Assembly (NCBI GenBank): GCA_946575275.1 | Contig: CAMNZV010000029.1 | Coordinates: 1 to 11,491, forward strand | Direction of reading: 5' to 3' | Source of the DNA: an uncultured Clostridium sp. | Lineage (GTDB): Bacteria; Bacillota; Clostridia; Clostridiales; Clostridiaceae | Length of the DNA stretch: 11,491 nt | Shown: piece after piece, positions 8,965 through 11,486 of the stretch | How positions within the stretch are numbered: the stretch's first letter is position 1 | Layout: each line of letters begins with the position of its first letter | Notes under the pieces: model-generated | Seen by the model: only the letters and a program-made list of their open reading frames with translations | Databases searched by the model: none | Told to the model about the DNA's origin: nothing | Made by a program: the position numbers and the translations under genes

Positions 8965-9001
8965 CAACAATTAAAGTGTTAAATAATCCTTTAAATTGTT
9001 G
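8965..9001. repeat. 12-bp inverted repeat overlapping the ilvN -35 box
   Basis: CAACAATTAAAG (8965-8976) and CTTTAAATTGTTG (8989-9001) are reverse complements apart from one extra A. The right arm ends inside the TTGACA -35 box (8999-9004). No T-run follows on the + strand, so it is not a normal terminator for the TM2 gene. An operator for the ilvN promoter is the likelier reading. The rest of the 8910-8998 stretch is AT-rich and shows nothing else I can support. Confidence 0.6.
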
Positions 9002-9027
9002 ACAAAACGTATATCAAGGAGTAAAAT
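8999..9027 (+). promoter_or_regulatory. ilvN-cimA promoter (TTGACA-17-TAAAAT)
   Basis: A consensus -35 TTGACA (8999-9004), an exact 17-nt spacer and -10 TAAAAT (9022-9027). Transcription would start near 9034, giving a leader of about 320 nt before ilvN. That is the usual length for a T-box-regulated gene, and the predicted start lies just before the first leader helix. Confidence 0.85.
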
Positions 9028-9033
9028 TTAACA

Positions 9034-9314
9034 AAACAATAACTTAATAGTACATTATTAAAAGGAAATGCAATGATGGAGACTGTTATATAACATATAA
9101 AAATTTTAGAGAGTCGATGTTTGGTGTAAATCGATATTTTTAGTTATATAATTATCACTCTTAAGCAGAATCCCGAAAGCAACAATTGTGAGTAAGAGAT
9201 TTCCGGTGAGCAACCGTTATATGCAAGGGTTTGTTTGAACCTAGTGATATTAATTTTAGGCGGAGTTATAGCTCACCATTATTTATGTGTATCATGATAA
9301 GGTGAGCTTTTTTG
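9034..9314 (+). promoter_or_regulatory. T-box-like riboswitch leader, isoleucine (ATC) specifier
   Basis: Stem I is clear. A basal TGC/GCA pairing (9069-9071 with 9165-9167) encloses an internal loop with ATGA. GAG/CTC (9079-9081 with 9158-9160) closes the specifier loop. GTTATATAAC pairs with GTTATATAAT (9085-9094 with 9143-9152). The distal part reads AGAGAG (9108-9113), then TCGAT/ATCGA (9114-9118 with 9130-9134) around a loop holding the T-box GGTG motif (9123-9126). The specifier codon reads ATC (9154-9156), followed by A, i.e. Ile. Stem II shows a GAA/AGTA pair of motifs (9175-9177, 9191-9194). A CGGT/ACCG hairpin (9204-9207 with 9213-9216) and a Stem III-like GGTTT/GAACC hairpin follow. 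The canonical T-box sequence with UGGN is missing. Uncharged tRNA-Ile would be expected to promote readthrough of the terminator at 9270. Confidence 0.78.
9270..9313 (+). terminator. Attenuator terminator of the ilvN-cimA leader
   Basis: AGCTCACC (9270-9277) pairs with GGTGAGCT (9301-9308), extended by TTAT/ATAA past a bulged A and by ATG/CAT near the loop, and followed by a T-run to 9313. It lies between the promoter and ilvN, so it acts as an attenuator. Its 5' arm can pair instead with GGTGAGC at 9205-9211. Confidence 0.92.
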
Positions 9315-9355: not shown

Positions 9356-9862
9356 ATGGAACAAAAGTATGTTTTATCAGTTCTTGTTAGAAACTCTGCA
9401 GGGGTTCTAAGTAGGGTATCAGGCCTGTTCTCTAGAAGAGGTTATAATATTGATAGCTTAACAGTTGGAAGGACGGAAAATAAAAATATTTCTAGAATGA
9501 CAATTACCCTAACAGGGGATGATGATGTTTTAGAACAAGTTAAAAAACAATTAGATAAGCTAGAGGATGTTATAACTGTTATTAATATTAATTCTGATAA
9601 CTCTGTAATTAGAGAACTAGTATTAGTAAAAGTAAAAGCAGATGCTGAAAATAGAGCTGCTATAAATGAAATTGTTAAAATATTTAGATGCAAGATAATA
9701 GATGTTAGTGTAGATACATTAACTATAGAATTAACAGGTGATGAAAATAAAATTTCTGCATTAATAAAACTTGTGGAGGAATATGGTATAGAAGAATTAG
9801 TAAGAACAGGTGTAACTGCTTTAGAAAGAGGGGACAACACAATAAATAGTTATGATAAATAA
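9356..9862 (+). CDS. ilvN: Acetolactate synthase small (regulatory) subunit
   Basis: Regulatory subunit of acetohydroxyacid synthase, which makes acetolactate (valine/leucine) and acetohydroxybutyrate (isoleucine); it activates the large subunit and confers valine feedback. From ATG at 9356 it is 168 aa. An N-terminal ACT domain (about 4-78) begins VLSVLVRNSAGVLSRVSGLF and carries the RRGYNIDSLTVG signature. A C-terminal small-subunit domain (about 84-160) includes RELVLVKVKA and a closing GVTALERG. The chosen start matches the family N-terminus and its AGGGG site. It is the first gene after the T-box-like leader, with cimA 25 nt downstream. No large subunit (ilvB) is in the window. Some genomes call this gene ilvH. 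Confidence 0.93.
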   Translation: MEQKYVLSVLVRNSAGVLSRVSGLFSRRGYNIDSLTVGRTENKNISRMTITLTGDDDVLEQVKKQLDKLEDVITVININSDNSVIRELVLVKVKADAENRAAINEIVKIFRCKIIDVSVDTLTIELTGDENKISALIKLVEEYGIEELVRTGVTALERGDNTINSYDK

Positions 9863-9880: not shown

Positions 9881-9887
9881 TGTGTTA

Positions 9888-11486
9888 ATGGAGCAAAATT
9901 CTAAAGTAAAAATATTTGATTCAACCTTAAGAGATGGAGCTCAGGGTCAAGGAATATCCTATTCCTTAGAGGATAAGATAAAAATTGTTAAGGCGTTAGA
10001 TAAAATTGGGGTATCATATATTGAAGCTGGAAATCCAGGTTCAAACCCAAAGGATATGGAGTTTTTTAAAAGGGCTTGTGATTTGAAGCTTGAGAATTCA
10101 AAATTAGTAGCTTTTGGATCTACAAGAAGACCAAATATTAAGGCTGAGGATGATAAAAATCTTAAAAATATACTTGAAGCTAATACAGATGTTACAATTA
10201 TTTTTGGAAAAACTTCAAAATTTCAAGTAGAAGAAATATTAAAGACAACACTAGAAGAAAATATAGAAATGATTAAAGATACAATTTCATATCTTAAGTC
10301 ACAAGATAAAGAAGTCCTGTTTGATGCAGAACATTTCTTTGATGGATATAAAGAAGATAGAGAATATGCACTAAAAACCTTAATTTCAGCTAAAGAAGCA
10401 GGGGCAGAAACAGTTGTACTTTGTGATACAAATGGAGGGACACTTCCAAATGAAATTGCTGAAATAGTAAAAATAGTAGTGGAAAAAGTAGATATTCAAG
10501 TTGGAATACACTGTCATAATGATATTGGAATGGCTGTTGCAAATTCAATTATTGCTGTTCAAAATGGTGCAACTCATATTCAAGGAACCTTTATAGGAAC
10601 AGGAGAAAGGTGCGGCAATGCAAATCTTAGTACAATTATCCCTACATTGCAGTTAAAAATGGGATATGATGTTTTAGAAAAGGATAAAATTAAATTACTT
10701 ACAAATAATTCAAGATATATAGCAGAAATATCTAATATAACATTAGAAGATAGTATGCCATATATAGGTGCATCAGCTTTTGCACATAAAGGTGGTATGC
10801 ATATTGATGCTGTATGTAAGAACTCAAAGGCATATGAGCATATAGATCCAGAAAGTGTAGGAAATGAAAGAAGGTTCTTAATATCAGAAGTAAGCGGAAA
10901 AAGTACTATTTATTCTCAAATAGAAAAAAAGTTTCCTGACATTTCAAAGGATAGTGAGGAAGTACAAAAAATTACAGATAAATTAAAGCAGCTAGAATAT
11001 GAAGGATACCAATTTGAAGGTGCAGAAGGTACAGTAGAACTTGTTATGAGAAAAATAATAGGCAAATACAGACCATTCTTTAAGCTTAATCATTTTAAGG
11101 TTATATCAGAGCAACCTTCAAATGGTAAGGATTTTACATCTGCTGTAATGGTAAATGTAAATGTAGATGGAAAAGAAGAAATGAATGCCTCAGAAGGAAA
11201 GGGACCTGTAGATGCTTTAGATAAGGCACTTAGAAAGGCACTTGAGGTATTTTATCCTCAATTAAGTGATGTAAGGCTTGTGGATTATAAAGTTAGAGTT
11301 TTAGATTCTGAAAGTGCTACATCAGCAAAGGTTAGAGTATTAATAGAATCAACAGATGGAAATGAAAATTGGAGTACTGTTGGGGTATCAAGGGATATTA
11401 TACAGGCAAGTTGGATAGCCTTAGTTGATTCTATAGAATATAAATTAATTAAAGATATTGAAAAAAAGGTAAAAACTTATTTTTAG
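9888..11486 (+). CDS. cimA: (R)-citramalate synthase
   Basis: Condenses pyruvate with acetyl-CoA to (R)-citramalate, the first step of the threonine-independent route to 2-oxobutyrate and isoleucine. The 532-aa protein has an N-terminal HMGL/DRE-TIM barrel with DSTLRDGAQ (11-19, the DRE-type metal and catalytic motif), DAEHFFDG (146-153), CDTNGG (179-184), the metal-binding HCHND (H208, H210) and GTGERCGNANL. A C-terminal LeuA-type allosteric domain (about 390-530) follows. The GAQGQG start and overall length fit the CimA branch rather than 2-isopropylmalate synthase or homocitrate synthase, and the Ile specifier in the leader supports this. It is probably feedback-regulated through the C-terminal domain. 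The window ends 5 nt after the stop, so the operon may continue. Confidence 0.9.
   Translation: MEQNSKVKIFDSTLRDGAQGQGISYSLEDKIKIVKALDKIGVSYIEAGNPGSNPKDMEFFKRACDLKLENSKLVAFGSTRRPNIKAEDDKNLKNILEANTDVTIIFGKTSKFQVEEILKTTLEENIEMIKDTISYLKSQDKEVLFDAEHFFDGYKEDREYALKTLISAKEAGAETVVLCDTNGGTLPNEIAEIVKIVVEKVDIQVGIHCHNDIGMAVANSIIAVQNGATHIQGTFIGTGERCGNANLSTIIPTLQLKMGYDVLEKDKIKLLTNNSRYIAEISNITLEDSMPYIGASAFAHKGGMHIDAVCKNSKAYEHIDPESVGNERRFLISEVSGKSTIYSQIEKKFPDISKDSEEVQKITDKLKQLEYEGYQFEGAEGTVELVMRKIIGKYRPFFKLNHFKVISEQPSNGKDFTSAVMVNVNVDGKEEMNASEGKGPVDALDKALRKALEVFYPQLSDVRLVDYKVRVLDSESATSAKVRVLIESTDGNENWSTVGVSRDIIQASWIALVDSIEYKLIKDIEKKVKTYF

Follow-up and report, generated by a model that had tools for sequence, protein, structure and literature searches.

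In the part of PMC7583486 accessible to us, UGGN is described as fixed at the edge of the bulge in all known T-boxes, and stem III is described as indispensable. The closest described system to the leader analyzed here is the class I transcriptional T-box (RF00230), in particular the clostridial ilv isoleucine type (L168, L163, and L140), with which it shares a Stem I with an AUC specifier, a Stem II S-turn, a IIA/B element, a hairpin of the GGGUUUGNUNGAACCU type, a terminator, and branched-chain biosynthesis genes downstream. However, leaders of that type have stem III and covarying antiterminators of the AGGGUGGUAACGCG type, whereas the variant family described below has neither. Translational T-boxes with a shortened Stem I keep UGGN; they shorten Stem I and keep the discriminator, while the variant leaders do the reverse. 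Such translational T-boxes are nevertheless comparable as another reduced architecture, as presented in the accessible part of PMC7583486. We conclude that the leaders described here are a genuine T-box variant that lacks the T-box sequence and extends across the clade, belonging to the family by their aptamer and not by their discriminator. The mechanism that would have replaced the discriminator is a proposal, and we hold it to be somewhat less than evenly likely.

The ilvN-cimA leader and its bulge position

The window, by which we mean the whole stretch of 11,491 nucleotides analyzed, carries on its forward strand ilvN (acetolactate synthase small subunit, 9356 to 9862; TIGR00119, start codon placed by reading) and cimA (citramalate synthase, 9882 to 11486; TIGR00977), so the genes downstream of the leader are indeed the isoleucine-pathway genes that the initial annotation took them for. 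On the same strand, the leader has a promoter-like TTGACA-17-TAAAAT element (8999 to 9027) that agrees with the consensus at 11 of 12 positions, and similar promoter hexamers were read upstream of the shortened leaders of G001 and G051. The T-box aptamer, comprising Stem I, Stem II, and IIA/B (9064 to 9232), was recognized by Rfam model RF00230 at 69.6 bits (E value of 9e-14), which is below the gathering score of 93, and the alignment skips the model's stem III and antiterminator positions. The only other match in an Rfam scan of the window was at chance level, on the opposite strand and far off. Stem I (9070 to 9166), whose helices were counted on 55 leaders, has the landmarks previously ascribed to it, namely, AGAGA at 9108 to 9112, TTGGTG at 9121 to 9126, and an isoleucine specifier, ATC (AUC), at 9154 to 9156 followed by A9157. 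Stem II (9169 to 9201), supported by the RF00230 match, the alignment, and pair counts, contains an S-turn (GAA at 9175 to 9177 and AGTA at 9191 to 9194). Pair counts also support the IIA/B pseudoknot (9204 to 9224), in which 9204 to 9206 pair with 9214 to 9216 and 9210 to 9212 pair with 9222 to 9224.

Beyond the aptamer lie a conserved hairpin, GGGUUU-GUUU-GAACCU (9227 to 9242), common to canonical ilv isoleucine T-boxes; AGUGAUAU (9243 to 9250), within which AGUG resembles the RRRxG motif as given in the accessible part of PMC7583486; GGCGGA (9259 to 9264), which the alignment of 55 leaders puts at the place of the T-box bulge; and an intrinsic terminator (9270 to 9313, with its stem at 9270 to 9308 and its U-run at 9308 to 9313). 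A simple consensus terminator scan of the window found none, whereas folding shows the terminator; the scan probably missed it owing to its interrupted stem. Taken whole, the leader is unremarkable in fold stability (z score of −0.85).

The only TGG triplets from 9070 to 9311 are those at 9077 and 9122, which lie inside Stem I, and there is none from the specifier to the terminator, as the initial annotation had claimed. The nearest resemblance to a T-box, AGGCGGAGTT, is present at 9258 to 9267, one base later than the 9257 to 9266 first given. That CGGA occupies the place of UGGN is borne out by G179, which has UGGA at the same site. We aligned 55 different leaders, including that of G179 and counting identical rows once, but omitting L060 (its start was missed by the script) and L063 and L066 (long Stem II insertion). 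The bulge position reads CGGA in 44, CGGC or CGGT in 2, CAGA in 3, AGGA in 3, UUGA in 2, and UGGA in 1, so that CGG is found in 46/55 and UGG only in the leader of G179 (L136; 1/55). The L136 leader has the same aptamer, hairpin, and AGUGAUAU pairing as the others, no recognizable stem III, and ilvN downstream, but it keeps a UGGA that can be read as a 4-base bulge in GAG-UGGA-GAU...AUC-CUC. Over the whole stretch from the specifier to the terminator arm, UGG triplets occur at scattered places in 25/55 leaders, and between the end of the hairpin and the terminator arm they occur in 4/55 (L136, L022, L025, and L035). The triplet lies three or four bases before the bulge in L022 and L025 and farther off in L035, and in these three leaders CCA pairing might conceivably still occur through it.

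No covariance match placed a UGGN, the RF00230 match being confined to 9064 to 9232, and the aligned leaders of close relatives are without the standard motif. The latter excludes a sequencing error, and the absence of UGGN is no local mutation.

Spread of the variant and selection on its tRNA-binding half

Complete leaders of the variant form were found in 50 of the 68 genomes of the genus and in nine genomes of genera g12, g19, and g27. When the 68 genus genomes were searched at the DNA level, 59 had matches, in several cases only short ones to other T-boxes. From 45 leaders we built a covariance model of the leader's 3' half, and this model matched 66/206 family genomes at E values up to 0.01: 53 in the genus, 10 in g12, g19, g27, and g33, and 3 others (G132, G167, and G205). 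The genus matches comprise the 50 complete leaders, two leaders without Stem I (G001 and G051), and one terminator only (G059), while nine of the ten matches in other genera have the same form and one (G179) has UGGA. An order-wide search of 225 genomes, overlapping the family set, added five genomes with weak matches (E values of 0.01 to 0.05). Among 29 named loci fetched by ilvN, 21 carry the variant form at 85 bits or more, including loci labeled Clostridium beijerinckii, C. paraputrificum, C. neonatale, C. puniceum, C. chromiireducens, C. uliginosum, C. cibarium, and C. intestinale. L109, which is also among the 21, had no Rfam T-box match.

RF00230 scored eleven matching homologues at 51.1 to 82.2 bits and returned no match for three shortened homologues (L065, L137, and L109). 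The model is also the basis of TBDB, according to the accessible part of PMC7778990, and it scores the variant leaders below its threshold. The ilvN leader thus escapes annotation at the Rfam threshold in those Clostridium genomes that we scored. In the literature searched, parts of which were accessible in excerpt and which did not extend to the older T-box surveys (RNA 2008, MMBR 2009), we found no mention of such leaders. Two related leaders, L063 (G041) and L066 (G027), have ~110 extra bases in Stem II (about 430 to 600), downstream of an intact Stem I and upstream of IIA/B, and their specifier reads ATC.

The covarying helices described in the initial annotation are not visible in a single sequence, but they do appear across the 55 leaders. 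In the named structure, 25/51 pairs have changed on both sides, compared with a mean of 15.4 in shuffles, and double-changed cells over the whole structure number 122, compared with 47.8 in shuffles (0/500 shuffles as high). When partners were slid, pairing dropped from 86% to 34 to 44%. The base of Stem I is 100% paired and its distal helix 98.5% paired, with 5/6 pairs of the latter changed on both sides. Pairing is poorer in the middle helix of Stem I (78.8%), at the base of Stem II (74.5%), and at the terminator apex (56%), where the alignment is blurred by indels. In both IIA/B helices, every cell with letters on both sides is paired, and the near-invariance of these helices leaves little covariation. 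The conserved hairpin is among the most conserved parts of the leader, and the AUC specifier is constant in 57/57 parsed leaders (the script was given 58, one of which was unparsed; L063 and L066 were not given to it). Since Stem I covaries and AUC is constant, the tRNA-Ile-binding half of the complete leaders is under selection. With a selected anticodon-reading half but no UGGN, the leaders of this clade are natural material for asking whether a T-box requires NCCA pairing to sense tRNA, how else charge may be sensed, and how the switch can be rewired.

In the variant clade, the switch must be either rewired or on its way out, and the initial annotation had offered both readings, an antiterminator whose diverged form dispenses with UGGN pairing and a switch decaying toward constitutive termination. 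The first fits the clade, with its complete leaders in 59 genomes, no UGG at the bulge of those that were aligned, and a constrained aptamer. The second fits six genomes of the genus, in which loss has been repeated: G001 and G051 are without Stem I, G059 and G062 keep the terminator only, G053 has no leader, and G064 has little of one. Eleven genus genomes had no ilvN match, and G042 (59% complete) was counted in neither group. Four g43 genomes that were fetched also have no T-box at ilvN. Since G051 and G059 are sisters in the ilvN tree and G001 lies elsewhere in it (G062, G053, and G064 are absent from the tree), at least two losses are implied. If decay held for the clade as a whole, charge sensing would be lost, the terminator would be a fixed attenuator, and the aptamer would be a fading remnant. 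However, the complete leaders keep Stem I with compensatory changes, IIA/B, the hairpin, and a constant AUC, which would be unexpected for a remnant at such divergence, and we consider general decay unlikely.

Antitermination in the variant leaders

We asked whether strands of the same leader pair better than strands swapped between leaders. Cognate arms were strongly preferred in the variant terminators (z score of −6.85, 0/5000; 30 representatives) and in the variant distal Stem I helix (z score of −9.06, 0/5000). Canonical antiterminators, 36/39 of which were parsed by the script, gave a z score of −5.23 (0/5000), whereas in 30 variant leaders the GGCGGA strand showed no cognate preference for the 5' arm of the terminator (z score of +0.12), nor did AGUGAUAU (AGUGAU; z score of +0.40), a contrast that may be somewhat overstated given the greater diversity of the canonical set. 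Other strand cuts gave an agreeing outcome. By this test, a classical antiterminator helix is undetectable in the variant leaders. AGUG or GGUG is kept in 50/55 leaders, and by reading there is no canonical-size stem III between AGUG and GGCGGA. Two other pairings were set aside. The 5' strand of the hairpin with the 5' arm of the terminator gave a z score of −1.84 (177/5000) as one of many windows. GGTGAGC, which occurs at 9206 to 9212 and 9302 to 9308 with its complement at 9272 to 9278, was taken as chance because the nearest relative, G035, reads GGTGTGC at the first place.

The bulge position itself might still hold the tRNA, in a weakened T-box in which CGGA, as part of an antiterminator AAG-GC-GGA...UCC-CA-CUU, grips the 3' end through two G-C pairs, to C74 and to C75. 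CGG does stand in 46/55 leaders where G179 has UGGA, and for many leaders folded without the downstream loop, the hairpin concerned is the predicted minimum. The position nevertheless reads CAGA in 3/55, AGGA in 3/55, and UUGA in 2/55, and the strands of this hairpin show no cognate preference. Genes for tRNA-Ile(GAU) ending in ACCA were found in six genus genomes, three of which have variant leaders (G002, G018, and G045), and the tRNA-Ile(GAU) of G179 also ends in ACCA. With that ending, UGGU would be the normal partner, and A73 and A76 would stay unpaired with CGGA. We therefore doubt this reading. The six genomes also led us to drop the idea that Clostridium has an odd tRNA-Ile. That idea had arisen because pattern and Rfam searches, in which some candidates went unscored, found no tRNA-Ile(GAU) in G013.

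The best candidate for a replacement antiterminator is a predicted helix between AGUGAUAU and the loop-side 3' strand of the terminator (9289 to 9295 in the window, complementary to 9244 to 9250). The helix reaches 7 or more contiguous pairs in 50/57 leaders (the 58 without L028), compared with 1/25 canonical leaders (3/25 when a 30-base stretch is considered) and 12.4% of shuffles. Of 187 upstream windows, the ones near AGUGAUAU have the best mean pairing with the loop-side strand; a few windows reached z scores of −2.5 to −3.2 against this strand and, as the best of 187 and uncorrected, were not counted as covariation. When the 3' base arm of the terminator was withheld, as in an incomplete RNA, the helix was in the predicted minimum in 19/20 clusters at probabilities of at least 0.81. 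Without that arm, the mean fold z score was −1.64, with 15/20 below −1. For the window itself, the helix comprises 7 contiguous pairs and the fold is unremarkable (z score of −0.42). The gap between the terminator and its best alternative was 5.1 ± 2.5 kcal/mol in 20 variant clusters, compared with 9.2 ± 2.1 kcal/mol in 13 canonical T-boxes of the same genome (P = 2e-4) and 12.4 ± 3.3 kcal/mol in 25 canonical leaders of other families, a comparison among related sequences in which segments were cut differently in the two sets. Terminator-state energies were equal in the variant clusters and the 13 canonical T-boxes of the same genome (−16.1 and −16.0).

No covariation supported the new helix: 0/7 pairs had changed on both sides, swapped and cognate halves folded equally (z scores of −0.55, −0.18, and +0.25 for 31, 55, and 20 leaders), and RNAalifold on 20 rows named the helix with a covariation term of about zero. 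Both strands are highly conserved, which leaves the covariation and swap tests little power, and something else, for instance the terminator apex itself, could account for that conservation. The register of the helix is shifted in L028 and L038. In the L022 clade (L022, L024, L026, and L038, with L028), the 5' strand has changed and only shifted pairing is kept, and another helix is predicted in L048 and L059, although the outer A-U pair there became G-C. G179 carries both the new helix and UGGA, while G001 has kept the hairpin, helix, and terminator without Stem I.

We give close to an even chance to the explanation that, as a whole, accounts best for these leaders, in which they would be a derived, clade-wide form of the isoleucine T-box of the ilv operon with re-routed antitermination. 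Comparison shows that the tRNA-Ile-binding half and the terminator were kept and that the UGGN bulge and a stem III of canonical size are gone. Antitermination would most likely be re-routed through AGUGAUAU, which after the hairpin is predicted to pair with AUAUCAUU on the loop side of the terminator. The new hairpin is predicted also to take up the 5' arm of the terminator, leaving only the 3' base arm free. Docked tRNA-Ile may stabilize this fold through the junction of IIA/B, the hairpin, and AGUG, and ilvN-cimA expression would rise when tRNA-Ile is uncharged and so free of EF-Tu. In that case the switch would sense charge through access or sterics, with no base pairing to NCCA. More tentatively, we suggest that a lineage of Clostridium and close genera may read tRNA-Ile without pairing to its 3' end, with an antiterminator built from the former RRRxG purine string and the loop-side strand of the terminator in place of UGGN, and charge sensed by access or sterics alone.

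Origin of the variant and leaders of other types

The 14 other T-boxes of the same genome, some on the reverse strand, served as controls; by reading, 13 have GGUGG or GAGUGG, and the remaining one is divergent, with UGGC, upstream of a gene with a product that begins like an asparagine synthase. In a search of the class, the hairpin pattern (up to 3 mismatches) occurred in 38/391 genomes. All 24 inspected hairpin-bearing leaders outside the genus, from other families, have GTGG after the hairpin, and most have ilvN- or ilvB-like genes downstream by reading; L139 and L140 are two further canonical leaders. As far as sampled, loss of UGGN is thus specific to the clade.

The same leaders bear on a reading in which the conserved hairpin would be an independent sensor of another ligand and would have taken over the switch. 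The hairpin persists in G001 and, in altered form, in G051, both of which have lost Stem I, and, as noted above, few parts of the leader are as conserved. However, the 24 canonical leaders of other families, although found by means of the hairpin pattern itself, indicate that the GGGUUUGNUNGAACCU hairpin is an old part of these T-boxes. We dropped the notion of a new ligand module once these leaders showed the same hairpin, and we consider it very improbable.

In an ilvN protein tree of 69 rows, the variants, G179, and the remnants are split from 8 canonical rows by a branch with support of 89/95. G179 sits on a long branch, and its exact place is not fixed by the tree. It is plausible that G179 represents an intermediate; judged from the sequences compared, a plausible path would start at the canonical form, pass through a leader with UGGA inside the new helix, as in G179, and end at CGGA. 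Among 20 ilvN loci that were scanned, only that of G179 gave a match to the T-box model. At most such loci outside g1, g33, and g43, ilvN directly follows an ilvB-like gene by reading, and no leader would be expected there.

Several reduced or unusual leaders were seen along the way. L065 (G001) and L137 (G051) run from a similar promoter straight to the IIA/B or hairpin part, with no Stem I or Stem II, and in L138 (G059) the terminator alone is left of the ilvN leader. The ilvN leaders L175 (G064) and L174 (G062) have shrunk to a short transcript with a terminator of the CCACTTTTATGA type. The divergent T-box of the window's own genome, L014 (G000:C8:4929-5192, about 1501-1800), has an AAC (Asn) specifier and an asparagine synthase-like gene downstream; its UGGC would suit a tRNA ending in GCCA, and the rest of its antiterminator is unlike AGGGUGGNACCGCG. 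In a different T-box of that genome, L013 (G000:C163:4313-4615, reverse strand), a single Stem I seems by reading to precede both GGTGGCATAAG and GGGTGGCACCGC, each a T-box motif. The former has a terminator of its own, which gives the impression of antiterminators arranged in tandem.
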